Program-made: the position numbers and the translations under genes
IMG/VR virus record: IMGVR_UViG_3300008267_000030
Coordinates: 1 to 64,000 of that record
Direction: 5' to 3' (one strand)
DNA length: 64,000 bases
Source of the DNA: a virus
Shown: in pieces, positions 134-52,977 of the stretch
Numbering within the stretch: position 1 is the first letter of the stretch
Layout of the letters: each line of letters starts with the position of its first letter
Notes under the pieces: model-generated
What the model saw: only the letters and a program-made list of their open reading frames with translations
What the model was told of the DNA's origin: nothing
Databases searched by the model: none

Positions 134-174
134 CTTACATGATTTGATGTAAGATTTCCTGCAATATCGTTGCA
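134..174. promoter_or_regulatory. Paired inverted repeats, candidate operator
   Basis: Two palindromes stand side by side, 134-153 with 7-base arms and 160-174 with 5-base arms, just upstream of a promoter-like element. A binding site for a phage or host regulator is inferred from position and symmetry only. Confidence 0.35.
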
Positions 175-28112: not shown

Positions 28113-28122
28113 GATTTTATTT

Positions 28123-32000: not shown

Positions 32001-32547
32001 GGTCAAAATTGTAACTGGTGTATTGACCGGAAGGAGATAGGGGTAGTATGGGTCCAACTATCTGATTGGTTTTTTTGTATATTTCTGTATTGATGCCTTT
32101 TTGAACATCTAAATACCTCGGCTCTGTATGTGGACAGGACCAGATTATTGTTCCACGGTTATAGGCCATGCTAACATAATCATCCTTTTGAAATAATAAA
32201 CCACCCCAAGTAAGCACTGATTGAAATTCCTCAACTCCAGTCGCTGTGTTGGTGTTCATTACATATATGGCGTGGTCTCCGTCTTCATTACAGTTTGCAA
32301 AGAAAATTCTACCCTCAACATTGTCAACGCATGAACCAACTGTAAAATTTTTGCCAGGGGGCAGCAATGGATTTTTTACCAACTCATTTCCTGTAATACT
32401 CCTGACGCCGACATTCCTGCCGGCAGACGCCGTGTGCTTTGTCAATCTTACATTTATGGCGTCTGTAAGTTGCTGAGGCGTAACCGAATCGATGTTAGCA
32501 TCCGGAACTACTACCTCTGGCCTGTGGATAATTGACTGGACGTTCAT
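29011..32547 (-). CDS. Large tail protein, candidate tail hub or nozzle
   Basis: This 1,178-residue, mostly beta protein starts MNVQSIIHRPEVVVPDANIDSVTP-like and has many short strands with Tyr, Asn and Gly turns (IYVMNTNTATG, GTIIWSCPH, ILPLSPSGQYTSYNF). The N-terminal part looks like a beta-propeller and resembles large tail-stabilising or nozzle proteins of podovirus-like phages. It sits immediately downstream of the polyvalent protein gene. No enzyme motif was found. The exact ring position in the tail cannot be read from sequence. Confidence 0.65.
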   Translation of the reverse strand: MNVQSIIHRPEVVVPDANIDSVTPQQLTDAINVRLTKHTASAGRNVGVRSITGNELVKNPLLPPGKNFTVGSCVDNVEGRIFFANCNEDGDHAIYVMNTNTATGVEEFQSVLTWGGLLFQKDDYVSMAYNRGTIIWSCPHTEPRYLDVQKGINTEIYKKTNQIVGPILPLSPSGQYTSYNFDQLKQPPMGFGQVAYSSNTDPTTGINAAVVLSEISSNGTKRPLSFVTKYGYQFAYNFVYYDFTESRLSEPSKAFFGLLPSGAPLSLNNVQHIIYLDWQDRTFVLFQNVVSKIKWYVRQGNTGEWKWFAETTPNGSNFDVKVLYANQTLGTYGVAVPRIDLLYSIGAISPSAALAVDGIAKRVVDNIFADNRIIHAGLQIGEDLIMPSATLSVRKITDQNEITNRSYYRTFLPIKRKKFFSLVFYDSKNRIIGTKRVGSVNAPFNPGVFIGLYGLDMAGSSLSEKWKALGTNTIVNDLDDGKFAIDVTIPTLTTEITESFQKSDVQKIGLSVRDEFDIPNFLRGQLRAYWVFEDQNGKLIYGYPSINGKNCDDWSGSLKFYGIGFQIPEGLPINFSNEQNLYISVRGITDTADPNYVRSKEQNYFFEQDFKVTGIDKTVLLCKSSWTQNGYDINNLRLPTVDARFVAGTYNTNEDDNFLTNLYEMVVGSDDKTVFTGWKFDFITYKRFAQTIVDAVIYSKNEISDNQYNVIPDIFWTAENLYDQNTNRTVSYYGDSYKINNFQQVQSPTVIDLYFYFESQSSVIKTGVQKVPNFAYGDKTSGGGDLSPVDGFFIVASATMAGNTDVDYTQDIGNVAAENQFPKKENLLRIYAHGEQFIEGTKLNNWFLFNPTNRRTVSGNVGNIVRVMNQSLTTNQGENIYLYCTQGVEMVYLGKVQQVGTDGTGVLSLSTNIFGTTNVMRLPYGPKNPKQVTQTTAGMTYYFDSANKVLVQVSASGQDSISEQRKFQTDTRKIYDTSVIGFDPFNMEVVLIDDSSGLAYNIVEEKYQGRRRFIKNDLLTFVASEVQPRTMYGFYNGEAYRFLNDPPPSGIVTVNGFPIQQFIKFVANHEINKHKVFSFIKLMAEYNNGVDTIDWSAIIEGYNQGQLGVSPSDTTSIMAADFTKRNYYYQATIKTSDQIDPFDGPLITGPFIEITLLGDEKYKNLIFAEIGFTLPPAQ

Positions 32548-35500: not shown

Positions 35501-38500
35501 GTAAGCGTGTTCAGGTTTATCTTTCCTGTCCAACGCATCATCCGTTTAACGAATGGAGTACCAGAAATTGCGGCCTTGTCTCTGGCCTGGGACATTAGTC
35601 CAGTGATTTCCGGAATCAACAAGTCTGCGGTTTCGCTTTGCTGTGCTGGTGCTGCTGGTGCTGCTGCCTGGTTCTGCGCCTCCTGTTCTGCCTGCTCTAT
35701 AAGCATTTGCTCGTAATCATCTACGCTTGTGCCTGCCGGTAGCGCTCCGGAGTCAATCATGCGGTCAACTCTGGCCTGCATCATCGCTCTGCGACGAATC
35801 TTTGTCTGCTGGTCAATGTATGCCCCCTGGTCAACAAGCATTTCCACAAGCCTTTGAATGCTTACGGCCTTGTAGTTTTTACCGGCCATCTGCTGAATGA
35901 AAGCATACAGCATACTGGACAATATGTCCATCTTGTCCGGATCGACCTTGTGAGCCTCGATTGTTCTCAGCAATGGCTTTAACCTTGCTTTCATCTCCGC
36001 TCCAGCGTAAGACTTGTCAAGTTCAGTTTTGGCCTTGTCAACCAGACTCTGCAGTGCTTTGATTTTTTCTGCAGACTGAATCATACCAACCGCATACTCG
36101 ATGAAGTTAAGCATGGCTTTGTCCGTGTTTGAGTTCGGGAACCTGGCCAAAATCTTCTCAATCAAGTTAGGGTTCAGCGGGACTTTAGCGCCACCCAGGA
36201 TTGTCTTCATCAGATTGATGGCCTGCTTGCGGGCCTGCTTCATGCCTTCTTTAGCAATCAGCGCCGACATTTTCTCAAATGCCTTGTCTGTGGCCTTGGT
36301 AATTTCGGCAACCAGTTCTGAGTTTTCTGTTACTACCTCAACGGCTACATCAACTGGGTTGACAGGCTGAATGAGTTTAGATACCCGCTTAACCATGTCT
36401 TCTACCTGAGACGGCTTGAACTTGGTCGGGTCGGACATATAGTTGCGCACATACTGCTCTGCAGCAGCAAGCGCATCCTGCATTGTCTTCTTGGTAAAGT
36501 TGTTTGCCGCCTTAGCCGCCATGATAACAGCCTTTGCCGCTCTGAGCGCACCGATCGAAATAGCCCTTGCCACCTGCGGCGGAATAGGTACGATACTGCT
36601 GTACGCTACGCTGCCTGGAGGCAGGTTCTTTTCACGCTCAATGAGTTGTTCAATCTTTGTAATTAAGCGGTCGAACAGGCTTTGCGGAATTTGCGTAGTC
36701 TCAGCACTTTGCTCATACATTGCCTGCTCAGCACTTTGCTGAAACTTTGCCGCATCCGAACCCTTCTCAAACAAAAATCCTCTGGCAGTGCTTGAATAAA
36801 ACCCATTGTTTGCACTTGCAATCCTGCGCAAGGTTGTAAAGTCGGCATCAGACAAACTGCGGTATCTGGCCATAACCATCTTCTTGCCGTTATCGGTTCT
36901 TGTGTACTCGTCAAGACCAACAATGACTGGGTTGTATTCTTTTTTAGCCGCATCCGCAGTTGCCTGAATAGAGGATGCAGAGGACGCAACTTCTTGTCCT
37001 TGCTGGCGCATTCGCTCGTTAATTTCAGCAACAACTTCTGGAGGCATTTTGTCCCCAGGAATGGTTAACATAAATTTACTTCCGGCCAATACTTTAAGCG
37101 CCTGCTTAGCGTTTTCTCCATTAAATCTGGCCTGCATATTTCTACCGTAAGACCTAAATTCGCCAGAATCGCTTAGTGAAAGCAGTTCTTCATCATTAAA
37201 ATATTTGCCTCCTAATTTTGTTGATTTTGGAACCAGTATTAAAATGCTATCCCTTGTGTTATATTCAATTGTAACTTCTCCGTTAGTTGATGTTACATCC
37301 CGCCTTGTATTCATCACTTGGTCATACGCATTTGTTATTGGCGTTTGACCCGCAAGTTCTTCAAGTTTTAATTGGCCTGGTCGATACAGTATCCCTTTTC
37401 GACTTTTGCCATCCTTAGTTGTATAAGAAACCAGATTGCCTTTCATTTGGCCATATCCCATCAGGATATTCCCCGACATGATAAACCTAATCTCCCTGTC
37501 CTTTAGTTTTTTCGTCTCCTTATCCCATTTATCAAAAAACGAATCCAGATTTTCTTGTTCAACATTATTGCTTCTTACAACTATCTGTTGAAGAATCAAT
37601 GATTTAGACAATGGAATTTTAATTTGGCTTCTACCATCCCTAATTGCAATTACAAACGTGATGTTTGATGGAGCAAATGGATTCTTGGTTTTTTTACCAA
37701 ACTCAATATTCATAACCACGCCCACAGAAGAAAGCGGAGAAGAATCTCTTTCTGAAATCATCATAGGCACTTTTACAATTTTGCCTATTTTTAAAGCATT
37801 CAGATACTGCTTTACAAGGATTTTTTGGTCGTTGATTCTTTTCAAAGATTTCTCCATTCTTTGCGCATAAGCATCTCTGATTGCATCTTCTGCTTGTTGC
37901 TTTGCCCTCTCTCTTTGCGCTTCTGCTTCACTTGCTAAAGGGAAATCTTTGTCAAAATTCTCATTAGCCGTAATCTGTTCTTTAGCAACTACTATTTCTT
38001 TTTCCATAAGGCCGGTTATTCGCTCCCGCTCCTCATTTGTAAGATTTTCATAGTATGAATTGACTTCATCAATTTTATCCGCCATGTATTTGGTCGGCGC
38101 TACTCCTTCGGTAGCCTTTTCCATATTTTTTCTAACCTGCTCTGCAGGCATTGGCTTTCTCAGAACATTAGCCTCAACAACTTCAATTACGGCATCTTCT
38201 CCAAATGGGCTACCGGTATGCTGGCCCTCAAAAAATACTTGTCGATACAGTGTCTCTGCTTGTAGTGGAACGCTAACAACTTTTAGGTCGTTTTCGTCCA
38301 TGCTATTCAAATAGTTTATTAGCGCTTCATACCTTGCGCTAATCTCCGTATAAAAAGCCTCTTGCTCTTTAGTGTATAGCAAGGCAACTCTTTTAAGAAC
38401 CTCTGTGGCCGCATTGTCTTGAACAGTAACTTTTGACAAATCCTCCTGCTCCCCAATTTTTAATGGGTCGTTAAGCAGCATATTTATCTCAGGGTTTTCA

Positions 38501-41500
38501 ACAAGATACTCGGTTACTATTTGGTCTCCGTATTTATTGATAATGTCCGCAACCTGTATATCGACGCTGCTGGATTCCTGTTGAGCCGTAGTGTTTGCAA
38601 GCAGCGATGCCACTTTCTTTTTCAGCATGATCTGAAACCTTCCCTCGGCAGGGATGGAACTGAGCATGATGTTGTAAGCGCCTCGAACAACCTGACCTGT
38701 TCTGTCAATACGGCCAAGCATTTGAATGAAAGTGTTTACGTCAAACGGAGGCTGCGCAATAATCATTATGCGCTGCCTTTTATCTTTGACCTTTTCATCT
38801 TCGCTTGCGTGCATAGACAGGCCGGTTGCTGCAGATGCGTTAATTAACAGAACATCAATATTGCCGTTATTAAATTCGGCAACCATTTTCTTTTTATCGG
38901 GCTTTGCCCTTTTGCTTAAAATGGCTCCTTGATTTGGCAGTATCTGAATGACTGTTTCTCTACCAGTAAGTTCAGCAACTTTGTACCCAGCCTTTTCAAT
39001 TTTTGTTTTAATTACATCAATCGGACTAATAGTAATCCCAGATACGGCCTGCTGTATTTCTGCTCTTAATCGATAGTAAGCCGCCGTACCCTCCGATCCA
39101 AGTTGCTCCGGCGAAAGCGTTTTTGTTTTTTTCTTTCCAGCAGCATCGTCTTCGGTGTATTCAAGGGTTTTGTCAAGACCTCTAATAAGCGTTAGTGAAA
39201 AATCAATATTTGGAATTACCTCCTGCATGGCAAAACCCATGTCATCAAGAAATGATTCCATTGTGTTTTGAAACCCAATTACTGGCTTCCTATTGTTTTT
39301 TAACTCATTTATTGCTTCTTCGGCAACTTGCTCTGCTTTAATGCTAAAAATCAATTGCTGCATTACATTGAAAAGTTTGCTGGCAAAAGGCGTGTTCTTT
39401 ACGCCCATGTCGCTGCTTTTCTTTTTTTCATCAACCCTAACTCCCTCTGTCAACTTATCCTCTCTTATACTTTTTATCGCTGGGGAAACGTAGGACCTTT
39501 GAAATGCTATAATTAACCTAACCAATCTTATAACTTGGTCGGCCTGCTGTTTTTGAGTTTGGGCTACCTCTTCACTTTCTGGATATGTATAATTCATTTC
39601 CACACCCTGAAAATCTCTTTCTCGGCGCACCATTTGCCCGGCTTGTGCTAATTGAGCAGAAATAATTTCCTGCAACGCCACGCCTCCGGTTGTAATTGCC
39701 TCAATCAATTTTTCATTGCTTAGCCCAGTGTCCCTAATAGATGTTTTTAGGGCATATATTGGCATATTCTCCGGGGTTTTGGCCCATGTTGCCGATAAGA
39801 AAAGTGTTCCTTGAGAGTTTTGAACTAACCCTCCAATGTACTCACCAGTTTGAGAAGTGCCAGACGCATTGTGAGATTCATCCATTATTAAGATGTTTCC
39901 TGGAGCAAGCAAATTGAGAAGCGACCTTTTGTCTGGGAACCTGTCGCTATTTACCTGAGAATAGGTTACCATTACATAGTTGAACTGTTTTGGCAATTCT
40001 CCTTTCTGCCTTAAATATTCCAGCGCCTTAGTAAACTCTGGCTTAGACTGATGTTTGTAAATTAACTTTTGTTCGTCCGTGGCTAAATCAGTTTCTGTAA
40101 CATTTGACTTAGTATCGGTATTAACTATAAATGGCACAAGCGCCTCGGCTCCAATACCTTTAAGGTCTCGGTACATATCAGAGAACAGCGCTCCATCTTG
40201 CGTGATAAATATTGGCGTCTTACCCTGCTTTACTCCATATCGGATCATGGCCGCTGCTATACGCCCCTTTCCCACGCCGGTCATATCGCCCACAATTAGG
40301 CTGTTGCCGGTTTTGATTTGAGCGATAGCCATAGCAACCGCATCAACCTGCTCTGCATACAAGCCCTTGTGCAGTTCTCCTATGTTTTTATATCCAAGTT
40401 CCCTGGCCACAAACTCGTCAATATCTCCGTACTGCTCCTGAATTTGATTTAGCACTCGCCTGGTTTCCGCAGCCATTGCAGTTGGCTGATAAGTACCCAC
40501 TGACTTGCCCTTAGACATTGGCTTGTAAAGAACCTTTTCAGCCTCAATGTCAATGTCGGTTTCGTCGAGTTCTTGAGTTTCGCCGGTTTTGGTTTCGCCG
40601 GTAAAATCCTCGCCAATCCCGGTGCGGTCTCCTTCTTCCAGTTCTGCTTCTTCCTTTTCCTTTTTTGTAGTAGTAGTGCCAGCGCCTCTGCCAGCACCCC
40701 TGCCGCCTCCTACACCACCAGCACCCTTGCCGGTCCCGGTTTGACCTTGTTTTCCGCTGTCAACTATTCCCTGATCCAGTTTAGACTGCAACAAAACGTC
40801 TTTAGCGTTCTGAACCCGAGCCATCAACGTATTGTAATCCGTTACCGGAGCAATCATTTCATCTGATACCTGACTACGAATAGGCGCAATTCCTCCAGGA
40901 GTTTGCTTCCTTCCGTTTATGAGAATGAGCCTGGTCGGATATGTTGTTCCCTGCTTGTAGTACAGTTTGCCATCGACGTTGATTACGTCAAGTACGTTAT
41001 AATAATGGTATAGGTAGTTTAGTAACTTTCTGTATTTAGTACTTTCGATTAAGCCATCGTCAGCATAACTATTATGTTCGCCAACAATAATTGCAGCCAC
41101 CCCATTGTTGGTCATGCTATCGAGAGCGTTTGCGACCATAATCGGATCAAGGCCGGTTAGATTGTATTTGGTTTCGGTTCCAAATACCCGCAATCCTTTA
41201 GAGCCGAAAGGGGGATTCATTACAACGGCATCGTATGTGCCGTCAAAAGGCAGTAGCGCATCCTGATTGGTTACCTCGGCAAATCCCTGGCTTTGAAGAT
41301 TGGAAAGTCTTTCCTGGTCAATTTCGTTGGCAACAACCCTTGCCGGGTCCATTGCAATTGTAAGCGCTCCATTTCCTGCGCTTGGCTCCAGCGTAAGTGT
41401 TGGGTTCTTTGCGGCAGCAAAGGAAGAAGCAATGAATGCGTATGGCAGCGGAGTTGAGTACTGTTGTAATTTAACCCGTGTACTATCTTTCTGCGCAAGT

Positions 41501-44500
41501 GTCGGCTGATAGTTATAGATGTTTTCAATAGCGTTCAGTTTCTCTGCATCGCTCATGGTGGTCTGGGCAATGTCCCGGGCCATTTTGACAACGATGCTTT
41601 CTACACGCTCCTGAATATCCGTATCGCTTATCCCGGGCAATAGTTTGCGCATGGCAACTATATTCAGCGGAGTCTTGTTCTTAATCGACTCCCGGATAGC
41701 GTTCTCAAACGGGTCTTCCTCAACAACCTCATCTGCTGGAGCAAAAATGTCTGTCAGAAGAGTGCCACGGATGTCTCTTGCGGTGTCCATCTGATCGAAC
41801 ACGTCCTCCTCAGCGTCCGATGCGTAGGCCAGGTAGGCTTTTTTCATCGCCTGAAACAGTTCGTCGGAGACGTCTCCAAGTTGCTGCTGTACCTGAATGA
41901 TGATGTCAGCAAACTTGTAAATGCCGACCTTAATCATAATGCCCACAACCTTAACGGCCTTCTCCAGAACCTCAGTCCTGATACCGTTCATTGTTGCCGG
42001 GCCTTGCTTTTTCATTTCGCCAAGCAGGTCCTTAAAGGCATCTTTAAGTTCATCCATACTGCCCTTCAACTTCTCTGCATTCTTAGCAGCAGCGTCGGCA
42101 AGTTTGGTGTCCTTAATTGTCTGAGTTCTTGACTTTTTGCCAGTCGTAGTTGTTACGGGCGGTCTTTCGACTTTTTCGTCTGGCTTGCTTCTCAAATCAA
42201 AATACATCTGGCCATTAGGTTTGGCTGGATTGTTATCCACAAACCCAAGGCTTTTGTAATATTGATATAGTTTGCTATCTACGCCAGTAAAGCCCATTCC
42301 CATATCCGCTCTGAGCGTAAGAATGTCTGCGCCAAGTTCCTTGGCTTTTCGCTTCATAGCCTCGATTACGGTCTTGCCATCGCCTTTGCCCTTCCCTTCT
42401 GCCCTACCAGCGTTTTCTATATTATTAAGATACGCTTCGTTTTTAGCCCAATCCGGCAGTTTTTGGTCTCCCTCTTCTTCAACAGTACTTACAATACCAC
42501 CGTCAAAATTCAGGACGCCAGTAACGTCATTTAAGGCAAACGTGTATTCATTGCCTTCCTGAGTAATTTTTATTTCGCCCGGCTTTGTAGCAGATAGTTT
42601 ATTCTTCTCCCTTTCATATACTGCATTTATGGCCTCAATTCTCGGGGCATCTACTTCTAATTCTCTATCATATTTGTCTGCTCTTTCGGTTTCGGATATT
42701 GATTGCCCTGCTATAGAAACGTATCTATGCATTATTGGGATAACCCTTTCTAATTCGGGGATTGTGTAGCCATAATAATTATAAATTTCAATGGCCTTTT
42801 TGTAAGCCCCATAAATCATGTCCCTTATTTCTTCGGGAACTTTATAAAAATTTTCTCTGGCTTTATCCTTGTTAGAAAATTCGGATAGACTTATACGTTT
42901 AAACCATTCTTTACCTGTCTCTATACTTTCAATTAAGTCAGAAGGATATGGAAGTCCGGCCTTTCTGGCCTCTTCTTTTATTTTTTCAACTCTGTATTGA
43001 TCTACTATTTCATTTGCTCTTTCGGCAGGCATTTTTTCAATTTTGAATCTTATGCCTTGCTTGTTGTTAGCAAACAATCGAATCATTTCAGCCGCTTTAT
43101 TGATACCTTCTTTTTCGGCACTATCGGCAATCGCAAGCAAAACCTTGCGTTCTTCTTCCGTGTGGACAAACGGTCGCTTTTCTTTTTCGGCTTGCTCCTG
43201 TTCTTTTCTTTGATTGCTGTAATCGGTATAAACTTGGCTTTGATTTGCTAAAGTAACTTTGCCTGCAGCCCCAAATTGTTTTAAATTTTCATTTTTGTAT
43301 ATTTTATCATACAATATACTTGCGGCTTTTTGCAGTTTATCACTATTTAAAATTTCCTCTATTGCGTCTTTTGCAGAGAAAGAAATTTCAATGGTTAATT
43401 TTAAGCCAGACGCTAATTCATATATTTCATACTGTAAGCCATCTTTTACAAGTATTAAATCAATTTGGTCATAAATTGGATTGCCTGTTTTTATTCTTTC
43501 GCCAACTAACTCTTTGCCGTTATTGGTATTAAAAGTAATTTGCTTTTCAGGCTTTTGTCCTCCAAACAAATCTCCCTGCCTGGTCTCCATGCCCATCTCA
43601 CGCTGATATGCAGCCAGCGCCTTGTCGGCTACTGCCTGGGCCATGTCAACGGCGGTTTTTAGCCTGTCAAGTTTGTCTTTCAGCGCTTGCGGGCTTTCGT
43701 TCTGAACAAAGCCTAATGGATTGCTGCCAAATAATTCCTGCTGCGATCCACGGGCCTGCTTCTTTACTTCGTTCTCGTATGCCTCTTTTGCGTTGGACAA
43801 ACCAAGCATAGCCAATTCCAGATTGGCCAGGGCCTGCTTTTGTTCCGGGGTTAGGTTTCTTGTGAACTCACGCTCAGCAAACTCATTGTCCCAGGCGGAG
43901 CGCATTTTTTCGTACTCTTCATCGGACAGCGGTTTGCCAAACATCTTTTCAGACTCTTCAGCATCCTCCTGCTCCCGCTTAATGTACTCTTCCGCAATCT
44001 GCCTCTCCAGTTCTTGAAACTCTTCTTCAGACAATGCCTTGCGACCGGTCTCTTCCTGTTCCGCCTCTTCTTGAGTCTCTTCTTGCTGCATCATGTATTT
44101 GACGTACTCGTCTTCGTACTTGCTTGCATCATACTCGCCTGCGATTTCAAGAATCCTGCGGGCCATTTCAGCGAAATTTCTATAGTCTTGGATAGCGGTC
44201 TCAATAGCACTTGCAGCCTCCTGATAATCATAATCATTTGGAACAGCATCTGGGTTGCCGCTATTTTCAGCCATGTAAGTCATAACCAACTCAGCCATAA
44301 CATCTACTGTTTTTGGCCCAGTTTTTCTTATCATGAACTTCCTTGCCTTTACCTCACCCTCTATCTGCTTCTTATCATATTCAGCAAATCCGGTATTTTT
44401 ACCGTACATACTGAACAACAATTCCTTGGTTATACCCTTTGACATTAAGACCTGCAGAGCCGAAACTTCGTAGTTGTTCGGCATATCTACCAATGCAGCC

Positions 44501-44646
44501 TTTTTCATCAGACCCGGCTCACGCTCAACGGCGCCTCTCTTTTCCTCCCAAAACTTTGGGTTTTCGTAAAGGAACTGGCGGAACTCGTCGTAGTTGTACC
44601 GCTTACCTGTTTTCAGGTCGATGAATACGCAGGGCTTTAAAGACAT
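32566..44646 (-). CDS. Giant polyvalent protein: GNAT-like + N6-adenine methyltransferase + helicase
   Basis: This 4,026-residue protein has recognisable domains in order. A GNAT-like acetyltransferase segment lies near residues 745-810 (LRADMGMGFTG, YYKSLGF). A class I methyltransferase follows, with LEPSAGNGAL near 1,086 and MNPPFGSKG near 1,144 (N6-adenine type). A superfamily 2 helicase of the Strawberry-notch type follows: Walker A GDMTGVGKGR near 1,453, MDESHNAS near 1,586, QMLGRIDRTGQV near 1,974. After about 1,400 mostly helical residues, a hydrophobic segment (AIAIALWALGIDF) lies near 3,684. The methyltransferase-helicase pair is like phage P1 DarB, an antirestriction protein injected with DNA. 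Flanking virion genes suggest packaging in the particle. Confidence 0.9.
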   Translation of the reverse strand: MSLKPCVFIDLKTGKRYNYDEFRQFLYENPKFWEEKRGAVEREPGLMKKAALVDMPNNYEVSALQVLMSKGITKELLFSMYGKNTGFAEYDKKQIEGEVKARKFMIRKTGPKTVDVMAELVMTYMAENSGNPDAVPNDYDYQEAASAIETAIQDYRNFAEMARRILEIAGEYDASKYEDEYVKYMMQQEETQEEAEQEETGRKALSEEEFQELERQIAEEYIKREQEDAEESEKMFGKPLSDEEYEKMRSAWDNEFAEREFTRNLTPEQKQALANLELAMLGLSNAKEAYENEVKKQARGSQQELFGSNPLGFVQNESPQALKDKLDRLKTAVDMAQAVADKALAAYQREMGMETRQGDLFGGQKPEKQITFNTNNGKELVGERIKTGNPIYDQIDLILVKDGLQYEIYELASGLKLTIEISFSAKDAIEEILNSDKLQKAASILYDKIYKNENLKQFGAAGKVTLANQSQVYTDYSNQRKEQEQAEKEKRPFVHTEEERKVLLAIADSAEKEGINKAAEMIRLFANNKQGIRFKIEKMPAERANEIVDQYRVEKIKEEARKAGLPYPSDLIESIETGKEWFKRISLSEFSNKDKARENFYKVPEEIRDMIYGAYKKAIEIYNYYGYTIPELERVIPIMHRYVSIAGQSISETERADKYDRELEVDAPRIEAINAVYEREKNKLSATKPGEIKITQEGNEYTFALNDVTGVLNFDGGIVSTVEEEGDQKLPDWAKNEAYLNNIENAGRAEGKGKGDGKTVIEAMKRKAKELGADILTLRADMGMGFTGVDSKLYQYYKSLGFVDNNPAKPNGQMYFDLRSKPDEKVERPPVTTTTGKKSRTQTIKDTKLADAAAKNAEKLKGSMDELKDAFKDLLGEMKKQGPATMNGIRTEVLEKAVKVVGIMIKVGIYKFADIIIQVQQQLGDVSDELFQAMKKAYLAYASDAEEDVFDQMDTARDIRGTLLTDIFAPADEVVEEDPFENAIRESIKNKTPLNIVAMRKLLPGISDTDIQERVESIVVKMARDIAQTTMSDAEKLNAIENIYNYQPTLAQKDSTRVKLQQYSTPLPYAFIASSFAAAKNPTLTLEPSAGNGALTIAMDPARVVANEIDQERLSNLQSQGFAEVTNQDALLPFDGTYDAVVMNPPFGSKGLRVFGTETKYNLTGLDPIMVANALDSMTNNGVAAIIVGEHNSYADDGLIESTKYRKLLNYLYHYYNVLDVINVDGKLYYKQGTTYPTRLILINGRKQTPGGIAPIRSQVSDEMIAPVTDYNTLMARVQNAKDVLLQSKLDQGIVDSGKQGQTGTGKGAGGVGGGRGAGRGAGTTTTKKEKEEAELEEGDRTGIGEDFTGETKTGETQELDETDIDIEAEKVLYKPMSKGKSVGTYQPTAMAAETRRVLNQIQEQYGDIDEFVARELGYKNIGELHKGLYAEQVDAVAMAIAQIKTGNSLIVGDMTGVGKGRIAAAMIRYGVKQGKTPIFITQDGALFSDMYRDLKGIGAEALVPFIVNTDTKSNVTETDLATDEQKLIYKHQSKPEFTKALEYLRQKGELPKQFNYVMVTYSQVNSDRFPDKRSLLNLLAPGNILIMDESHNASGTSQTGEYIGGLVQNSQGTLFLSATWAKTPENMPIYALKTSIRDTGLSNEKLIEAITTGGVALQEIISAQLAQAGQMVRRERDFQGVEMNYTYPESEEVAQTQKQQADQVIRLVRLIIAFQRSYVSPAIKSIREDKLTEGVRVDEKKKSSDMGVKNTPFASKLFNVMQQLIFSIKAEQVAEEAINELKNNRKPVIGFQNTMESFLDDMGFAMQEVIPNIDFSLTLIRGLDKTLEYTEDDAAGKKKTKTLSPEQLGSEGTAAYYRLRAEIQQAVSGITISPIDVIKTKIEKAGYKVAELTGRETVIQILPNQGAILSKRAKPDKKKMVAEFNNGNIDVLLINASAATGLSMHASEDEKVKDKRQRIMIIAQPPFDVNTFIQMLGRIDRTGQVVRGAYNIMLSSIPAEGRFQIMLKKKVASLLANTTAQQESSSVDIQVADIINKYGDQIVTEYLVENPEINMLLNDPLKIGEQEDLSKVTVQDNAATEVLKRVALLYTKEQEAFYTEISARYEALINYLNSMDENDLKVVSVPLQAETLYRQVFFEGQHTGSPFGEDAVIEVVEANVLRKPMPAEQVRKNMEKATEGVAPTKYMADKIDEVNSYYENLTNEERERITGLMEKEIVVAKEQITANENFDKDFPLASEAEAQRERAKQQAEDAIRDAYAQRMEKSLKRINDQKILVKQYLNALKIGKIVKVPMMISERDSSPLSSVGVVMNIEFGKKTKNPFAPSNITFVIAIRDGRSQIKIPLSKSLILQQIVVRSNNVEQENLDSFFDKWDKETKKLKDREIRFIMSGNILMGYGQMKGNLVSYTTKDGKSRKGILYRPGQLKLEELAGQTPITNAYDQVMNTRRDVTSTNGEVTIEYNTRDSILILVPKSTKLGGKYFNDEELLSLSDSGEFRSYGRNMQARFNGENAKQALKVLAGSKFMLTIPGDKMPPEVVAEINERMRQQGQEVASSASSIQATADAAKKEYNPVIVGLDEYTRTDNGKKMVMARYRSLSDADFTTLRRIASANNGFYSSTARGFLFEKGSDAAKFQQSAEQAMYEQSAETTQIPQSLFDRLITKIEQLIEREKNLPPGSVAYSSIVPIPPQVARAISIGALRAAKAVIMAAKAANNFTKKTMQDALAAAEQYVRNYMSDPTKFKPSQVEDMVKRVSKLIQPVNPVDVAVEVVTENSELVAEITKATDKAFEKMSALIAKEGMKQARKQAINLMKTILGGAKVPLNPNLIEKILARFPNSNTDKAMLNFIEYAVGMIQSAEKIKALQSLVDKAKTELDKSYAGAEMKARLKPLLRTIEAHKVDPDKMDILSSMLYAFIQQMAGKNYKAVSIQRLVEMLVDQGAYIDQQTKIRRRAMMQARVDRMIDSGALPAGTSVDDYEQMLIEQAEQEAQNQAAAPAAPAQQSETADLLIPEITGLMSQARDKAAISGTPFVKRMMRWTGKINLNTLTDNELKRLHNILNDYIELDDLSDLGVYAARGEAQERLSRLNTLVNKFRQYKGDVTKFSLNNLLENVSSSEEAKDTLRAELYQREEVLFGDVKKRTDDNLQALETHIIENDMDERAVRATEVFNILAQAGSQNSTWQAWREAMMINWNKYLNKKMEEQRLMSSGYTNIFEKDILAEEIRIAEQTLNILENDFDPDQHQTLATTIDRSQAELAQMVRNFYAEISEEFRQNTAAFFSKLFDPTENPMYVSLNVIDRLGKGGIDESSNPTLTDTVFEEARIDRRESRTAIERTTFTNNAVVYGTDLLANFRKRYYQTLYQAKMTEELFVMDRMIKSEQFRNLFDPQYSDRTTKVILAFMEGVVDGQRYFGYIGVSDQPMIKKLVNGNIGAVLVDLGQYAKQSIGALQIKARVSFKLTGWALKTAILPTEAQKRWLDSTTTLRERTYQSESLVSKQYAELNKFAGKTWAKKLLVKIGDAIKNTRNFMAKYTIEKADRFVSAAALFAGYANSLNKQGLIQDPSEINWDEEIKNPNYNALAAAENLSDEINVPSNQTTKAEVLRSEKKSINDFTRKEINWMLAQFDLNAYNNFRNNWRTIMDMSGTVDAKERWSAGAKVFGILANTQTYAAVKIGMDILYQQVAIAIALWALGIDFEDEDEEERKRRQNRSLATSALLGVFNLFVGKYGNIAKIIPKVAFALGFAAFYKDKEQTEENKGTLKDPNTDLFYDPTGVPVVDLAVRQMEQIGKNIKKEDDGYELARTAGMLASFVTGFATIERITAKTTKEMSESPKRKDAKLAEKTDLLGEKKFDERKTKLFKYLKEGHEDYAQTIFEKMVGPVVSENYNENYNKTFQAIMDHLQTDRVRSQMKGSDYFGALAYGLGFAGKEINVTLPEGITGNIDVLMGRGYLNEGDIRRIVQRYENQYQEDMKMIETLKEVNPILGNALEKFFKPEGPGEGSLPQSYSIMRRMKKKGSLAYDIPE

Positions 44647-44647
44647 A

Positions 44648-45139
44648 TTACTTGTTTCCTAATTCTTGGTCAAACAAAAGGGCTGCTGCAGAATTGCCAT
44701 TTACAATGTTGTACCTGGCTAAAAGGTCTCCATACTCTCCAACTGCAAGTCGTTGTATATTAACCATTTCGTGCAGAAAAACTTGAAGCGACGCATCTTT
44801 TGTGTTCATGTATGCGTCCTCGTAAAAATCGTATAAATTTTTCTCTAATTCATACGCTTCTTCCAATACTTCTCCAAGTTCTTCACATTCCACCGTTACC
44901 GAATCAATTACCGGAGAATCGATGATGTCGTTCTGGTCGTTTACAAAGTCCCGAATCTTGTAATAATGCTCGATTTCATCTGCTGATTCTTTCTCAAAAA
45001 ACTTCTGCGCACCAAAATATCCCAGGCTCTGGCTCTTTGCTGCGGCGCTTTTGTAAAAATGGCTTGCGTACAATTCGTGTTCTGCAGCCTTGTTCATTGT
45101 CTTCTTCCCCTGGGAAGAAAGGATTGATTTTATTTTCAT
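44648..45139 (-). CDS. Ferritin-like diiron protein
   Basis: The product has 163 residues and a four-helix ferritin pattern. Helix A carries EHELYASHFY, matching the family block with Glu-Leu-x-Ala-Ser. Helix B has ESADEIEHYYK, giving the Glu and the E-x-x-H pair. Helix C has YELEKNLYDFYEDA (third Glu). Helix D has FLHEMVNIQRLA, keeping the Gln; an extra Glu found in FtnA-type proteins is replaced by Ala. Ferritins oxidise Fe(II) and store iron in a cage. It starts in an ATGA overlap with the 1,740-residue gene and ends one base before the polyvalent gene, so it is co-expressed with virion genes. Confidence 0.85.
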   Translation of the reverse strand: MKIKSILSSQGKKTMNKAAEHELYASHFYKSAAAKSQSLGYFGAQKFFEKESADEIEHYYKIRDFVNDQNDIIDSPVIDSVTVECEELGEVLEEAYELEKNLYDFYEDAYMNTKDASLQVFLHEMVNIQRLAVGEYGDLLARYNIVNGNSAAALLFDQELGNK

Positions 45140-48100
45140 GGACAGTCTTTTTTGATTTTGTTATCGTTCTCCAGTCTTGCTACAATTTTTTCAAAGTCTT
45201 TGGTAATCTTTCGCATTGCCGAAAACTTTTCGTCTCCAATTTCAGCACGGAGGTCGGCCCGCATCTTTTCCCCTTGCTTGCCAGTTGCGTCAAGGGCTGC
45301 GTCCATCCGGGTCCACTCGGTTTCTTCGACTTCTTCCTCTTCAGGAGCCTCCTCTTCCTTGCCCGCTTCCTCCTCGATAGCACCAGGCAAATACTCTGGC
45401 CGGATCGCCATTATTGTGTCCGGAGGCCAGGCCGCAAGGTCCTCGTTAAATAATTCGGTAAGCGAATCGTCCTGCTCGTTTATGCCAAACAATATCTCGC
45501 CGTCTGCAAGCCGCTTCTCAGCGTCCATCTTGCTTTCTACGCCTTCTCCAAACTCCCCGACAGCATCGTGTAGTTCGTCCCCGACGTTGGCTACCCGCCT
45601 TTCTTTTCCGGTGTCTTGGACTCCTGGGGTCTTTTTCTTTCCAGTATCCTCCTGTTCAACTTTGCCAGCACCTTCTGCGCCCGGCTCCCTTCCGAATTTT
45701 TGATAGTGTTCATACCAAAGTGTATTTAATAAATTCTGTAACTCTTCAATCATGTCAAGAGCGTAGGAGTTGTCAGACTCCTTTTCTCTTAACTCTGCTA
45801 TTCTTCCCTCTGCCCACAGCCTTGTCTGCAGGAAATCCGTATCGTCCGTCTGGTCGGTTATGCCGTTCTCAAGCAGGTTTGCTATCCTGTCGGTCATATC
45901 CTTTTCAATGATGGCCTGGACTGATGTCCTGCGGTTTGGAGGCAATTCAGAATACAGTTCCTGCAACTGGCGCTCCTGCTCTTCCGGCGTCTCCTTTACT
46001 TCCAGTTTGTGCCTCTGGATGTCAACGTCAATAAGTACGTTCTCGTCTCTTATCTCAATCTTGCCGTCAGTAAGGTAAATGGAATTGCCTTTGGGGTCTT
46101 TGTTGATCCGGAACTCTTTGCCATTAACCATGGCGGTGTTCTCGTCAATAACTTTGACCTGCTTTTTAGCCCGGTCTTTGCGCTGCTGCAGTTTGCTTTT
46201 AAGTCTTTCGGCTGCTGTCTTGCCCTGAACTTGTGTTGGCTCGGTGTACAATTTTGCGCCCAAATCCTGCAGTGTTTGGCCTGCCGGTATCTCAATAGTT
46301 TTTGTAGGCGTTTCAATTGCAAGTTTGCCAGCGCCTTCGTCAATTACAGTACCTTTCTCGCCGCCAATAATTACTGTCTGGCCGACTTCTGGAGTTGGTA
46401 TGCTTTCTACTTTTGGTTCTTTTGCTTTGTTATAAGCCTCTAAAAGTTGTGTTGCTTTTTCGTCATCAAGGCTAAACCAAACTTTTAAATTTTTAACATT
46501 AACTTCTTTGTAGGAATCCTTGAACATTTTTTCAAGTTCCTGCATTTCCCCAAAAGTGTATTCTTGCTTTTCTCCCGATGTTGAATCGGTCCAAATTATA
46601 GTATCGTCAACCGACTTGTCTTCTGTCTCATCGGTCAATCCCTCCGCCCGTTTTTTTATTTCTGGCAGGAAATGGTTGTACATCTCCACATACCGCTGGT
46701 CGATGTTCGGGATCGTACTAAAATCAACGTCGTTCAAATAATCGTCGATAAACGCAAGCATCCGCTCCTCGTCAACCTTGTTCTCGTTTTTGAACCTGGA
46801 ATACTCCTCGTCATCTACCAGAACTTCCTCGTCGGCTACATCTGTTGCAGCAGCCGTTGTTGTGGCTTTAGTTGTAACAGCCTTGCCCTTTCTTCTTCCA
46901 AAGGTTTTAAATTCATTAACAATGTCTGAATAAAACTTCAACATTGTCTTTTGAAAATCAGTAGCCTTTTCTGTATTTTTATTTATTTCGGCTTGATACT
47001 CTTCTTGTTTTGACTGAAAATACGCTATTGGACTTTCTTTTAGCAAAGCCAGTTCTTTCTTATAATTTTCAAGGTCTTCTTTTTCGACTTTATCGAGGTC
47101 CGGATTACTGCTTAAATCGTTTATTTCCCTTTCTAAGGTTTGGGTTGCTATTTCAACCCTGCTTTTTAACCTATCGTCAGTTGGCGTTTGGTTAAGGTCC
47201 TGCTTTAGCGCATCGTTAAACAAATTTTGAACCTCAACGTAATCAGGGTTTTTCTTGTTGTCAAAGTACCCGCCAAATGCTATTTCCCTTTTTTTGATAA
47301 ATTCTTTAAAAAGGTCGTTTTCAAACAACTTTACAGCCTGTTCTTTTGTATAAAAATACTCGTCTCCGTTTAGTAGAGTTACGGCAAACAAATCTGGCGA
47401 AGCGCCTTTTTGAAAAACATTATTGAAAAGTTCTTTGTACCGAGCAGCATCTTCTAAGCGACCTTCTTTTTCAGCGTTTTCATACTGATTAAGCAGCAAG
47501 AAACCAACCTTTGTGGCAAGCGGAGTCAATTTACTTTTGCTTGCCATCTGTTGAAACTTGTCAAAGTTATCAACCTGAATCGCAAGCGCATCTGCCTGTT
47601 CTTTGGATAACTTACCGCCTGTAAACAAATTGCTTACAAGCGCCCCAGTAAAGTTTTTGCCTTTTTCTCGCTGTATGTCCATAAAGGACTGGGACATATT
47701 CACGTCATTAAATAGCAGGCTTTGCTTTGCCAGGAATGACTTGGCCTCCCTTTCGGCCATAGTTTTTGCTGTGTATTCTCTGGCTCCTGTAAATGCTGCT
47801 GGCGCTCCTCCCATAAAAAAAGACGGCGCAGTTGCAACCATTGTCTCTCTGAACTTTTCATAGTTCATTGCCTTGTATGCGTTGTAGAACTTATCGTTGT
47901 TAGCGATAACCTCCTCCATTGCATTTTGCGGGAACTCTTGCAGTACGCCTTCTGTAAAATATTCTAATGACCCCGACTTTAACGCTTTTGTCAAGGTGCT
48001 TCCTTTCATTACATTAAAAAAGGGAAGAACCTCCAACGTGTAAGTTGGCATCATAAAGATTTGCCCGGCCAATAGTTCATTAACTGCATCCTTTGCTTTG

Positions 48101-50358
48101 ATTGGATCGCCAGTTTTTGCAAGAACCTGGTCGTACATACCTCCCATCATATCTGCAGTTTCTGCACCCCATGAGGCAAGTGTTGCCCCCATGATTTCGG
48201 TAGCCTTACCAACGCCTGCGCCCCTTAGTGCCATAACTGTTCCTGCGGCGCCTATGATTCCCGGAGTCATTCTTCCAAGCAGCATACCCGTATTCCCAGC
48301 CATTTTTGTGGCGTCAAACAGGTCCATCCAACTATCGTTTTTATAGTTGGCTAATTTGTAATTGCTTTCAATAATCTCGCCGAATCCCCTTAGTTGGTCT
48401 GAGCCAAAAATTATTCCAAAGTTTTTTAAGGATGACCCAAGGTTAGAATAGGTTTGATCTAATAGATTGCTAAGAAATGAATTAGCCTGGTCCTTCTTAA
48501 ACTTAGCCGCTTCTTTGGCTCCAACAATATCGTCTATCTCTTTTTCATAAACTTGAGTGCTTACCTTTTGAACCAACGACTCAAGCGCCGGGTCCATTTT
48601 GTATTTTTTCTTAAACTCATCAAACGCTGTTTTAATTTCTCCATCTGCAGAGGCAACTATTTCATCTCGCATTCGGATAAATTTTGCCTGCTTTCTTGAA
48701 TTTAGTTGATTGACAGAGTTTGTATAGTTCTGCCAAGCAGTACCAAACTCTTTGCCATATTTCTTTACCGCAAACTGCGTAGTTTGTTCGCTAATTTTTT
48801 TGCGCCTTTCCTCGTTTTGCAGCATTTCATTGGCTTTTTCTACAGTCAATTGACCGTTTTTAACCATCCCCTGCAACCGGTTAAAGTCTTGTTTTTCAAG
48901 ACCTCTTTGATATTCTACAACCTCTGGATCATCAAATGCTTTTTTCTGTATAGCCTCGAACTCCTTTGTGTAGGCGTCTTTTAGTGGCGCTCCTTCGTTT
49001 TTAGTTTCTGCATTTATATCTTGCAATAGTGCAGTTTGCTGAGCCTTGGCCCTGGCTTTAATACCTTCTGCCGCAGTAAACTTTGAAACAAAATCCTTTT
49101 TTAGGTCTTCCTGCAGATTGGCTGCAGTTACCTTTCCGGTTTTTGAATCTTTTAAGGTTTTTAATTTCCCATACTCCTCAGCAATCTTTTTTTCAATTGC
49201 CGGTTTTCTTTTTGCTAATTCTGGGGCAATATTTTTTTGAAAATCCGCTATGCCCTGAATCCTGTTTTTAATCATGCTGTAGGCAAACCCATCTGTAGGT
49301 ACGCCCATTTCGGCTGCAATAGTTTTTGCGACTTTGTCAACCTCCGCAATATTATAACCAGTGTGTCCAGTTCCTGGATTGTATTGAAAAAACTTGTCTG
49401 CCCCATTCTTTTTTACAGCATCGCTTGCCAGTTTTTCAATTACCGGAGTGGTTGATTTAAGAGTAAGATTGTATTTCTGCCTTTTTAATTCATGCTCTTC
49501 AAGCAACTTTTTGCTTTCTGGGCTTACCGGAATCGCTTTTTCTTGTTCTGTTATTCCTTTAATAGACCTTGCAGCCGCAGCAGACCTTTCTCCAAGGTCT
49601 CCAAAACCAGTCTCCGGCGCTATTGCAATTTTTCTTTGTTCATCATACGCTCTTTTTTTATCGTCTATTTCTCTAAACGATTTAATTTCAGACTCATACT
49701 GCTGAAGCATTTTTGCTTCCTTAGTTGAACTTTTGCCTGCTTTAACTTCTGGCTTGCCAGTAATTCGGTCCCAGACATTTTTGGCTGTTTGGGCTATTTG
49801 TAAATTAGGCATTGCCATCATGCCCAATCCTTGCCACGCTTTTTCAAAAAACCCAGGCTCTTCTTCTTTTGGCGCTGGAGGCACTACGGGTTTTTGCTGA
49901 GTTTGCTCAACCGGAACCTGGGCCTGCTGTTCAGGAGTAGCAACTGGTTGAGTCTGTTCCACTGGCGTTTCTGCAGGTGCTTGCGCTGCCTCTTGAGGCG
50001 CAGGTTGCTCCTGCGGTGTTTCTGCTTGCGCTGGCTTAGGCTCATCCGGACTTGTGTCCAGCAACATGGCTTTAAATTGCGCCTGATCTGATGGGAGGCC
50101 CTTGGCTTTGCCAGTTGATGAAACGGAAAGAAATATTTGCCTTGCGTTATCGTCGCTTTTAGATATGTAATCCTTTAGCCACTTCTCGTCAACGCCCTTG
50201 TATCGCTCAGGAAACGAAGCATTAAGCAACTTGGCTATTTGAGCCAATCGCCTATCGCCCTTTGACCCAGGCCCACCGGCTATTTCTGTGGCCTCCGGAG
50301 ACTCAATGGCCTCCGGGGTTTCAATTACTTCTGGCTGAATATATTCTTCACCTATCAT
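45136..50358 (-). CDS. Large virion protein with hydrophobic core, candidate ejection protein
   Basis: This 1,740-residue protein starts at ATG 50358, one base after the preceding stop; a TTG at 50373 is unlikely. Residues 20-165 are Glu/Pro/Gln-rich low complexity (PEAIESPEATE, PVEQTQPVATP). Residues 200-680 are charged helices. A hydrophobic Gly/Ala/Met segment spans about 680-800 (GMLLGRMTPGIIGAAGTVMAL) and resembles membrane-penetrating parts of ejected proteins. The C-terminal third is acidic with coiled coil. No muramidase or polymerase motif was found. Its place beside the polyvalent gene supports co-ejection, by inference. Confidence 0.7.
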   Translation of the reverse strand: MIGEEYIQPEVIETPEAIESPEATEIAGGPGSKGDRRLAQIAKLLNASFPERYKGVDEKWLKDYISKSDDNARQIFLSVSSTGKAKGLPSDQAQFKAMLLDTSPDEPKPAQAETPQEQPAPQEAAQAPAETPVEQTQPVATPEQQAQVPVEQTQQKPVVPPAPKEEEPGFFEKAWQGLGMMAMPNLQIAQTAKNVWDRITGKPEVKAGKSSTKEAKMLQQYESEIKSFREIDDKKRAYDEQRKIAIAPETGFGDLGERSAAAARSIKGITEQEKAIPVSPESKKLLEEHELKRQKYNLTLKSTTPVIEKLASDAVKKNGADKFFQYNPGTGHTGYNIAEVDKVAKTIAAEMGVPTDGFAYSMIKNRIQGIADFQKNIAPELAKRKPAIEKKIAEEYGKLKTLKDSKTGKVTAANLQEDLKKDFVSKFTAAEGIKARAKAQQTALLQDINAETKNEGAPLKDAYTKEFEAIQKKAFDDPEVVEYQRGLEKQDFNRLQGMVKNGQLTVEKANEMLQNEERRKKISEQTTQFAVKKYGKEFGTAWQNYTNSVNQLNSRKQAKFIRMRDEIVASADGEIKTAFDEFKKKYKMDPALESLVQKVSTQVYEKEIDDIVGAKEAAKFKKDQANSFLSNLLDQTYSNLGSSLKNFGIIFGSDQLRGFGEIIESNYKLANYKNDSWMDLFDATKMAGNTGMLLGRMTPGIIGAAGTVMALRGAGVGKATEIMGATLASWGAETADMMGGMYDQVLAKTGDPIKAKDAVNELLAGQIFMMPTYTLEVLPFFNVMKGSTLTKALKSGSLEYFTEGVLQEFPQNAMEEVIANNDKFYNAYKAMNYEKFRETMVATAPSFFMGGAPAAFTGAREYTAKTMAEREAKSFLAKQSLLFNDVNMSQSFMDIQREKGKNFTGALVSNLFTGGKLSKEQADALAIQVDNFDKFQQMASKSKLTPLATKVGFLLLNQYENAEKEGRLEDAARYKELFNNVFQKGASPDLFAVTLLNGDEYFYTKEQAVKLFENDLFKEFIKKREIAFGGYFDNKKNPDYVEVQNLFNDALKQDLNQTPTDDRLKSRVEIATQTLEREINDLSSNPDLDKVEKEDLENYKKELALLKESPIAYFQSKQEEYQAEINKNTEKATDFQKTMLKFYSDIVNEFKTFGRRKGKAVTTKATTTAAATDVADEEVLVDDEEYSRFKNENKVDEERMLAFIDDYLNDVDFSTIPNIDQRYVEMYNHFLPEIKKRAEGLTDETEDKSVDDTIIWTDSTSGEKQEYTFGEMQELEKMFKDSYKEVNVKNLKVWFSLDDEKATQLLEAYNKAKEPKVESIPTPEVGQTVIIGGEKGTVIDEGAGKLAIETPTKTIEIPAGQTLQDLGAKLYTEPTQVQGKTAAERLKSKLQQRKDRAKKQVKVIDENTAMVNGKEFRINKDPKGNSIYLTDGKIEIRDENVLIDVDIQRHKLEVKETPEEQERQLQELYSELPPNRRTSVQAIIEKDMTDRIANLLENGITDQTDDTDFLQTRLWAEGRIAELREKESDNSYALDMIEELQNLLNTLWYEHYQKFGREPGAEGAGKVEQEDTGKKKTPGVQDTGKERRVANVGDELHDAVGEFGEGVESKMDAEKRLADGEILFGINEQDDSLTELFNEDLAAWPPDTIMAIRPEYLPGAIEEEAGKEEEAPEEEEVEETEWTRMDAALDATGKQGEKMRADLRAEIGDEKFSAMRKITKDFEKIVARLENDNKIKKDCP

Positions 50359-50359
50359 A

Positions 50360-52264
50360 TTATTCAAACTCAAATTCTTCTACTTGATTTGACCCTCCTT
50401 GCGCTGGCTGCATTGCTCCTCCAAGAGAATTTAAGGTAGCATTATTTTGAACTTTTTCGGCGTCTTCGATCAATTTTCGCACCTTTTCCTGGCCCATATT
50501 TCTTTGAGCAATTGTCTTAATACTACTGCCTGCTTTTGCAGGGTAATATATTGATGCTGGCAACCCAGGACTTCCAATGTTAATGGTTGTTGCGCCCTGG
50601 GTTGTTGTCATATTTCCTGATTTTGGGTCTATATTTCTGGTTTCTTTAGGCGCAGGCCCCACGGGTTTTTCTTGACCTGTAGGCAAATCAACTTTAAAAT
50701 ATGCGCTTGTTACAAATGAACCTGGAACACTTGCTAAGTCCTTTACTCCGCTAATTGCAACCTCCTCGCCACCTCGGCTTTTTACTTTAGTTGTGTATCC
50801 TTTGCTGTTTGCATACTTTATAAATTCTTCTGTCGAACGAATGTTTAATTCTCCTCCGGTTCCAAATGAGCCATTTCTTGAAAAATAAGCATTTTTAAAA
50901 TTTTTGCCCAGGTTTGGAAAAGCCTGATTTACATCTACCCTTTTCCCGCTTTTGTCATATACAATTATGCCACTTGGGTTTAAAGATGTCCTTGCAACAA
51001 TTTTATAGGATTGATCCGCCCCTTGACTAATATTTTGGACATCCTTACCTATTGGACTCAACCTTCCATACTGATCCATGGTATAGGCCGTTCTTATATC
51101 AGGTTTTAAATTTGCCGCTTGCTCTCTGGTCATTTGCGCAGAAACTGTTGTTTCTTTACCTGATTGAGCATTATTGTGAGCCGGGCTTGTAATAATTTCT
51201 ACCTGCGGAGTGCCTGCGTACTCAGCGTCTTCTTTTTCCATCTGCTCTCTGGTTGGAGCAACGTATTGTCTTATAGCCTCTGTGCCTTCTGACTTTGCAA
51301 AGAAATCCTCCCACCTTTTGCCTTGGCCGAAATATGGGAAGATAAACTCTTCCGCATTAATTTTATTCATTGCAGATTGTAACTTGGCCGGATCGGATGC
51401 ATATTTTGTCTGCAACTTTGCAACTGCATCATCATAGTCTTTTTTAAAATTAGGGTCTTTAAGTTTTTCCTCTCTATTGGCAACATATAATTGCTGCGTT
51501 GGAGTGCCAGGAGTAGTGTAATCGCCATAAAACCCATCAAAATCAAATCCGGTAATTTTGCCTGTTTTTGGATTTAATTGCCAATAAGCCTGAGCCTCTG
51601 CGCTGCTACCAGTTTTGTAAAGCCCGCTTGGGTCTTTTGCTACCTGAACCTTGTTTTTCCTTTCGTTTGCTGTTTTTACAAATGCACTATTTATGTTTGA
51701 TTGCTGAAGAGTTTTAAGTTGCTTTTTGGCATCGTCAACATCAGCCTGAATATCAGTTTGCAGGTATTGTTTCGGGTCTAATTTACCGGTAGCATCTTTT
51801 GCCAAAAATCTCTGATATTGTTTTTGCTTGACATAATCAAGTAAAACTCCCGGGTCATAAACATTTTCCATGCCTTTCATGGCATTGGCTACCGCTTCCC
51901 TTGTTTCTTTGGCAAGAACTTGATATTGCTTTGCCTTTGACTCTAAATCTCCTGTTACGGCAAGTTTATTTGCTTCGGTAAGCATCCCCTGCTGCTTTAA
52001 GGTAAGCAGTTTTTTTATCGAGGGATTTATATCCTGGTTATTATAAATTTCTTGAAAGTAGTCTGCGTCTCCGGCTTTAAGTGTTAGAAGGTCTTTATCC
52101 TCCTGTGCTTTTTTGGCTTTCAGGGCGGCATCGGCCATAGCCTTTGCTTTCATGCCCATCATGTCCATTTGCATCATACGATTTTTAGTATCGTATGCCG
52201 TCTTTTCAACCGGTAGTTGGCCAACTGATATGGCGCTACCCATCCCCGGGGTGTATGTTTCCAT
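50360..52264 (-). CDS. Virion protein, candidate internal/ejection protein
   Basis: This 634-residue protein has a helical Lys/Ala/Gln-rich N-terminal 200 residues (KAMADAALKAKKAQEDKDLL). A mixed middle follows, and the C-terminal part is rich in Gly, Ser and Asn (ITSPAHNNAQSGKETTV). It overlaps the connector gene before it by one base and the 1,740-residue gene follows after one base. No enzymatic motif is convincing. Gene order suggests a virion or ejection protein. Confidence 0.65.
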   Translation of the reverse strand: METYTPGMGSAISVGQLPVEKTAYDTKNRMMQMDMMGMKAKAMADAALKAKKAQEDKDLLTLKAGDADYFQEIYNNQDINPSIKKLLTLKQQGMLTEANKLAVTGDLESKAKQYQVLAKETREAVANAMKGMENVYDPGVLLDYVKQKQYQRFLAKDATGKLDPKQYLQTDIQADVDDAKKQLKTLQQSNINSAFVKTANERKNKVQVAKDPSGLYKTGSSAEAQAYWQLNPKTGKITGFDFDGFYGDYTTPGTPTQQLYVANREEKLKDPNFKKDYDDAVAKLQTKYASDPAKLQSAMNKINAEEFIFPYFGQGKRWEDFFAKSEGTEAIRQYVAPTREQMEKEDAEYAGTPQVEIITSPAHNNAQSGKETTVSAQMTREQAANLKPDIRTAYTMDQYGRLSPIGKDVQNISQGADQSYKIVARTSLNPSGIIVYDKSGKRVDVNQAFPNLGKNFKNAYFSRNGSFGTGGELNIRSTEEFIKYANSKGYTTKVKSRGGEEVAISGVKDLASVPGSFVTSAYFKVDLPTGQEKPVGPAPKETRNIDPKSGNMTTTQGATTINIGSPGLPASIYYPAKAGSSIKTIAQRNMGQEKVRKLIEDAEKVQNNATLNSLGGAMQPAQGGSNQVEEFEFE

Positions 52265-52977
52265 TAGTACATTACTCGTCTAAAGTCCGAAATTATTTCT
52301 TGAGCAGAAGGGGCTACCCTTTGCCTCATTTTACTTATCTCGGCATCAAGACGCTGCTCATACAATGCCGTTTCTGTTCTTTTGCTTGGCGTATGACACG
52401 AAATCCAAAACATCATGTGAGCCATAAGGGCTGTTTGGAAGAACGGATGAATAAGTATTCCGCACGAAACGTCCACGCAGTCCGCCAGATATTCCATGTA
52501 AAAATTTGGAATCTTAACCATTGGGTCCAATTTGATCTGGCGCTCTTTGTAGTCTATCTGCCAGGTAGGAATATAATTCCTTGGTATAAACATTGGACTG
52601 TCCGGATAGTTGCTTGCTGGCCACGGAAATGGAATTGCAACGGAATCAAGAACAGTTGGAATAGAAACGACATTACCGTTTAGCGCAAGATTTTCGCTTT
52701 TGGCCAAAGGAGCAATTTGACTTCCAACCTGATACCCCATTTTCATCCAGTCGATAAAATCGTTTGGAAACGTAATGGTTTTATTTGGGTTGATTTTGCC
52801 CTGAAATAATTTTATTGTGTGAAACGTATCGTTATTTAAATCACGCAGAAAATCTTCTGCGTAATCATACAGCCTATCCTCGTCATCTTCTGGCAAACGC
52901 ATTTGCCGCATCACTTTAGCGACAATACTTTCCAGATTCTGCGTAAACTTTACATCCGGAATATTGTTGTTCATCAT
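52264..52977 (-). CDS. Head-tail connector-type protein 3
   Basis: The 237-residue product has a helical N-terminus (FTQNLESIVAKVMRQM) and a beta middle with many Asn and Pro (KTITFPNDFIDWMKMGYQVG), then a helical C-terminus (TPSKRTETALYEQRLDAEIS). It is third of three connector-sized genes after TerL and is coupled to its neighbours by overlaps. Ring or neck function is inferred from order and size. Confidence 0.6.
   Translation of the reverse strand: MMNNNIPDVKFTQNLESIVAKVMRQMRLPEDDEDRLYDYAEDFLRDLNNDTFHTIKLFQGKINPNKTITFPNDFIDWMKMGYQVGSQIAPLAKSENLALNGNVVSIPTVLDSVAIPFPWPASNYPDSPMFIPRNYIPTWQIDYKERQIKLDPMVKIPNFYMEYLADCVDVSCGILIHPFFQTALMAHMMFWISCHTPSKRTETALYEQRLDAEISKMRQRVAPSAQEIISDFRRVMY

Follow-up and report, generated by a model that had tools for sequence, protein, structure and literature searches.

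Which described phage systems come closest to a ferritin encoded among head genes? The Dps and Mn-catalase proteins of the 'Gratiaviridae' and of Lactobacillus phages are likewise phage-encoded members of the ferritin superfamily, belonging to other families (PMC8008677, PMC6669764), and the Lactobacillus phage Dps gene lies near replication genes (PMC6669764), unlike the head-gene-linked ferritin described here. The Vi01-like phage Sajous1 carries a protein called ferritin, gp217, that was found in virions by mass spectrometry and whose gene adjoins that of a tail completion protein (PMC10892097); it was named from a Phyre2 prediction only, and the Vi01 reference genome gives no PF00210 match. 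With regard to gene position, the comparison is with effectors: for polyvalent and MuF-linked proteins, packaging and injection have been argued, and DarB of P1 belongs to the virion head (PMC5512222). DarB and the MuF toxins occupy the same gene slots as the ferritin—beside portal or MuF genes, among late genes—and the survey of such effectors leaves ferritin unmentioned (PMC5512222). In the literature we searched, which took in few subscription journals, no paper links a phage ferritin to genes for portal, MuF, or polyvalent proteins.

The gene studied here lies in a 64,000-nucleotide stretch (the window) of a 72-kb viral contig, IMG/VR record IMGVR_UViG_3300008267_000030. The initial annotation had proposed a ferritin within the virion gene cluster, wedged between two very large genes, and an ORF check found its coordinates and spacings correct: four bases (ATGA) are shared by the ferritin start and the end of the ORF upstream, and the ATG of the 4026-aa ORF lies one base past the ferritin gene's end. 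The surroundings are a late/virion module that includes terminase large subunit and portal genes (Table 1); the terminase is distant from those of Flavobacterium and Cellulophaga phages (~26% identity).

Table 1. Features of the window and of the predicted ferritin; nucleotide positions are those of the window, residue numbers those of the protein named
Feature	Position	Strand	Size or extent	Annotation or basis
Portal protein	25797..28154	-		phrog_6547, 5.2e-32
1178-aa protein	29011..32547	-	1178 aa	Family with MIHRI[DN] at the N terminus; kept as next gene within this phage group
Polyvalent protein	32566..44646	-	4026 aa	Strawberry-notch-type helicase, residues 1448-2121
N-terminal motif C..F...YDEFRxFL	44527..44646	-	First 40 codons of 4026-aa gene	Alignment
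Ferritin gene	44648..45139	-	163 aa, ATG start	PF00210 match
Giant protein	45136..50373	-	1745 aa (TTG) or 1740 aa (first in-frame ATG)	Candidate internal/ejection protein
Virion structural protein	52264..52977	-		phrog_13977, 9e-10
Terminase large subunit	54344..56692	-		phrog_6681, 1.7e-60
Ferritin helices	A 9-38, B 42-68, C 88-112, D 116-146, E 150-161			AlphaFold2 model
Predicted diiron ligands	E22, E55, H58, E99, Q129			Pattern E, ExxH, E, Q on helices A-D

What are the neighboring genes? The 1,740 residues first counted for the upstream giant are its length from the first in-frame ATG. Neither Pfam nor PHROGs returned a significant match for this protein, leaving its earlier description as a candidate ejection protein without profile support; relatives of the window phage have a giant ORF of variable length at the same place. 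The term polyvalent, applied to the downstream protein, is borne out by its Strawberry-notch helicase (PF13871, E = 2.3e-21; PF13872, 1.5e-13) and by phrog_14770 (E = 1.1e-88), which also matches LPD38-type polyvalent proteins in relatives. A methyltransferase signal ahead of the helicase is weak (0.004-0.014). The 1178-aa protein that follows has no match in Pfam or PHROGs, and its place in the gene order is kept in relatives L003-L008, L012-L016, and L022.

The 163-aa protein is, on sequence profiles and a predicted structure, a true classical nonheme ferritin. A Pfam search gave PF00210 at 43.1 bits (cut-off, 24.5; E = 5e-11), its best PDB match was a ferritin (E = 3e-8), and the family profile matched PDB ferritins at E = 1.5e-20, values well outside what chance would give. 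An AlphaFold2 model built from eight family members (pLDDT 94.1, pTM 0.88) has the topology A-B-(long loop)-C-D-E, with the BC loop at residues 69-87 and helix E present. Foldseek aligned this model to ferritins of Escherichia coli, Helicobacter pylori, Pyrococcus furiosus, and Thermotoga with TM scores of 0.91-0.94 and rmsd values mostly of 1.2-1.6 Å. The initial annotation had named two ways in which its assignment could fail, a model lacking a four-helix diiron site and a profile match to a non-ferritin family; superposition gave a ferritin bundle (TM 0.91-0.92 to bacterial and archaeal ferritins, including E. coli FtnA), and PF00210 was clearly the best profile.

Other members of the superfamily were considered and rejected. 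Dps, bacterioferritin, and rubrerythrin identities all lost clearly to PF00210, with Rubrerythrin falling under its own cut-off. A Dps-type fold was likewise dismissed: the best PDB matches are 24-mer ferritins (TM 0.91-0.94), whereas models of phage Dps reached TM 0.5-0.6. Nor is the protein an equivalog of E. coli FtnA (NF007638, 28.6 bits vs. a cut-off of 178), and the site C glutamates of that equivalog are absent, positions 128, 131, and 132 being I, L, and A.

Does the protein keep a working active site? The diiron site looks intact by sequence, as first described, with HELYAS, E55-x-x-H58, E99, and Q129 all present, and these residues align with the ferroxidase ligands of P. furiosus ferritin and other ferritins. 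Among 100 distinct proteins of the family, E22 is found in 98/98; E55, H58, and E99 in 100/100; and Q129 in 99/100. A median dN/dS of 0.20 (1007 pairs) places the family under purifying selection, and the predicted catalytic competence of the phage ferritin is well supported by sequence; assembly into a cage, expected to have 24 subunits, and catalysis itself are inferred.

Compared with cellular ferritins, the phage proteins combine a shared core with distinct features. The E. coli (FtnA), H. pylori, and P. furiosus ferritins resemble them in fold (TM 0.91-0.92), in A- and B-site ligands, and in helix E, but identity to bacterial and archaeal ferritins is only 19-24%. The bacterial site C is lost in the phage set, where the equivalents of E49, E126, E129, and E130 are mostly D/E54, I128, K131, and S/A132. 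In turn, Q37, E51, Y106, E135, and D138 are invariant among phage ferritins as compared with cellular ones, and against bacterial and archaeal ferritins in particular, the first three are invariants of the phage proteins alone. The animal ferritin of the 7y74 type and the phage proteins have Q..(A/S)..E.GD in common on helix D, with Ala/Ser where bacteria have Glu; however, sequence similarity is low, helix B carries Gln in the animal protein where the phage has E51, and the two are joined in the tree by a long branch.

How widespread is this ferritin among phages? Scanning IMG/VR with successively broader ferritin alignments yielded 125 ferritin loci, some of them the same contig repeated, that encode 100 distinct proteins on >100 contigs. 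By this count the uncultured phage studied here and about a hundred other environmental phages encode such a ferritin. A scan of 84,980 genomes (species) found four contigs, all in metagenome-assembled genomes (MAGs); when 299 genomes from the phylum to which one of the MAGs belongs were scanned, that MAG alone gave a family-type match (246 bits; next best, 88 bits). No close relative was present among 50,697 phage records, tblastn searches for cultured relatives gave either no matches or <27% identity in unannotated records, and a PF00210 search of the related cultured phages MW202828 and Elemovirus found no ferritin. A quick tree separates the phage proteins and the phage-type copies on MAG contigs from cellular ferritins with SH-aLRT 99, a value that counts copies L221 and L225 with the phage clade even though the run had labeled them 'cell'. 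The deep root is unsure because of long branches. As judged from these searches and the tree, the clade is phage-restricted. Four unannotated records from phage collections (OR845001, OR850087, MT836766, and MT839617) contain distant ferritin-like matches (21-26% identity) and may be bacterial DNA.

The initial annotation had suggested looking for the gene at the same place in related phages, and there it recurs, almost always beside genes for proteins at or within the head: portal, MuF, giant, or polyvalent genes. Its late-gene position is conserved over a number of lineages whose portals belong to different families, and it is co-directional with these neighbors and only a few bases from them. 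Same-strand upstream neighbors all lie <30 bp away (96/96), as do 92/94 of those downstream. In the podovirus-like group that includes the window, the ferritin is flanked by two giant genes. The same holds for a second large podovirus-like group (group B), whose late module contains TerL, portal, and MCP genes; here the downstream giant has ART-PolyVal and LPD38 domains, and several upstream giants include a segment that begins an ART domain. The predicted model of one group B neighbor (L099 c2) was of low confidence. Elsewhere the ferritin gene sits directly 3' of a portal gene of phrog_6547 (L163/L142-type) or phrog_21 (L028-type), is separated from the portal by one small ORF (L018), or comes after a portal gene and then a gene for a MuF/minor-head 'DNA pilot' protein (L118, L026, and L116). 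In L122 and L123 it stands in the MuF/minor-head slot of the related L118, as if swapped. One family member (L031, 9941-10486) has no recognized head genes adjoining, its neighbors being without profile annotation.

Is there anything that ties the ferritin to the protein encoded after it? A profile search found a motif of ~40 residues, M..C.(Y/F)...(Y)DEFRxYL, at the N terminus of the +1 gene product in 89 of the 125 ferritin loci; two further loci have it at +2 or +4. In both podovirus-like groups the motif is on the gene after the ferritin, whatever other domains that gene encodes. When we searched with the motif only, 35 loci were recovered, one of them without upstream sequence; a ferritin gene lay ≤12 bp upstream in 33 of the remaining 34, a co-occurrence that is partly phylogenetic and does not count independent events, because the loci come from one phage group. 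The motif is absent from the polyvalent proteins of the ferritin-less phages MW202426 and Vibrio 1.205.O, and no protein bearing it was found in the portal-linked lineages within the stretch examined. The sole match in a phage record, Vibrio 1.151.O, was set aside as chance (antisense to an annotated gene, E=2). In locus L216 (2986-6099), a polyvalent gene with the motif comes directly after the upstream giant and ferritin is absent; since the polyvalent pair persists there, ferritin is dispensable in that phage. The motif, newly described on polyvalent proteins, is possibly a cargo or partner signal, and as such a candidate to test.

What might a ferritin do among head genes? We lean, with modest confidence, toward a late ferroxidase that is most likely carried in the virion as head cargo and limits Fenton damage. 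The evidence for packaging is gene context: the gene's position is common to lineages with different portal families, and its neighbors are of kinds for which packaging and injection have been argued. The initial annotation, working from a single genome, had guessed that the protein may be packaged or injected, a guess to which the repeated position in several lineages now lends support. Under this reading, the ferritin would be made late, its translation coupled to that of head-interior or polyvalent proteins. Each subunit, with its four-helix bundle and helix E, would hold a functional diiron ferroxidase center, and 24 of them are expected to assemble into a cage. As head cargo the ferritin would oxidize and sequester Fe(II) and so spare packaged or incoming DNA, or proteins delivered alongside it, some Fenton damage. 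Delivery into the cell and a role in DNA protection may follow. A folded 12-nm cage should not fit through a podovirus tail; delivery, if any, would therefore be as monomers, and otherwise the ferritin would act inside the head or only in assembly. A more far-reaching version is tentative: that the phage-specific clade is capsid cargo of several lineages, held with polyvalent effectors via the N-terminal motif they share, and that it is either delivered or employed against iron and radical damage to the genome on entry. Encapsulins carry ferritin-like cargo, a parallel to a packaged phage ferritin. If packaged, this protein would be a natural ferritin cargo in an HK97-type phage capsid, and whether phage particles carry iron would become a directly testable question.

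The main rival to packaging, which we regard as possible at less than even chances, is a late cytosolic iron buffer—co-expressed with virion genes, left unpackaged, and storing iron from host protein turnover or limiting oxidative killing until lysis—for which operon position would set timing and dose only. A conserved active site suits a soluble ferritin, a late operon position also fits a cytosolic late protein, and the infected cell has been suggested as the place where phage Dps and Mn-catalase work (PMC8008677). For such a buffer, however, the gene would not have to be linked so tightly, in several lineages, to genes for portal, MuF, or polyvalent proteins, or to be associated with the N-terminal motif.

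An improbable reading makes the role structural: a ferritin cage or dimer would serve as core, plug, or scaffold and draw in polyvalent proteins by way of the motif, its iron chemistry being secondary. The motif's presence on otherwise unlike downstream proteins and the phage-specific invariants outside the diiron site are in keeping with this, whereas the invariant diiron ligands, the purifying selection, and the lack of a recognized motif partner in the stretch examined of portal-linked lineages speak against it. Very unlikely is a Ferrojan horse, in which the ferritin's iron load lets the virion exploit host iron uptake for entry: proposed for phages, and raised for the Vi01-like phage with its Phyre2-predicted virion ferritin (PMC10892097), it concerns tails, whereas these genes adjoin portal, minor-head, and polyvalent genes; moreover, the host tested in that study showed no dependence, and PF00210 finds no match in Vi01, which served as the proxy.

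Two BFVD entries, A0A6J7WIS1 and A0A6J7WPK9, named 'prohead protease' of uncultured phages, also resemble the ferritin model weakly in structure and may be fusions of a head protease with a ferritin-like domain.
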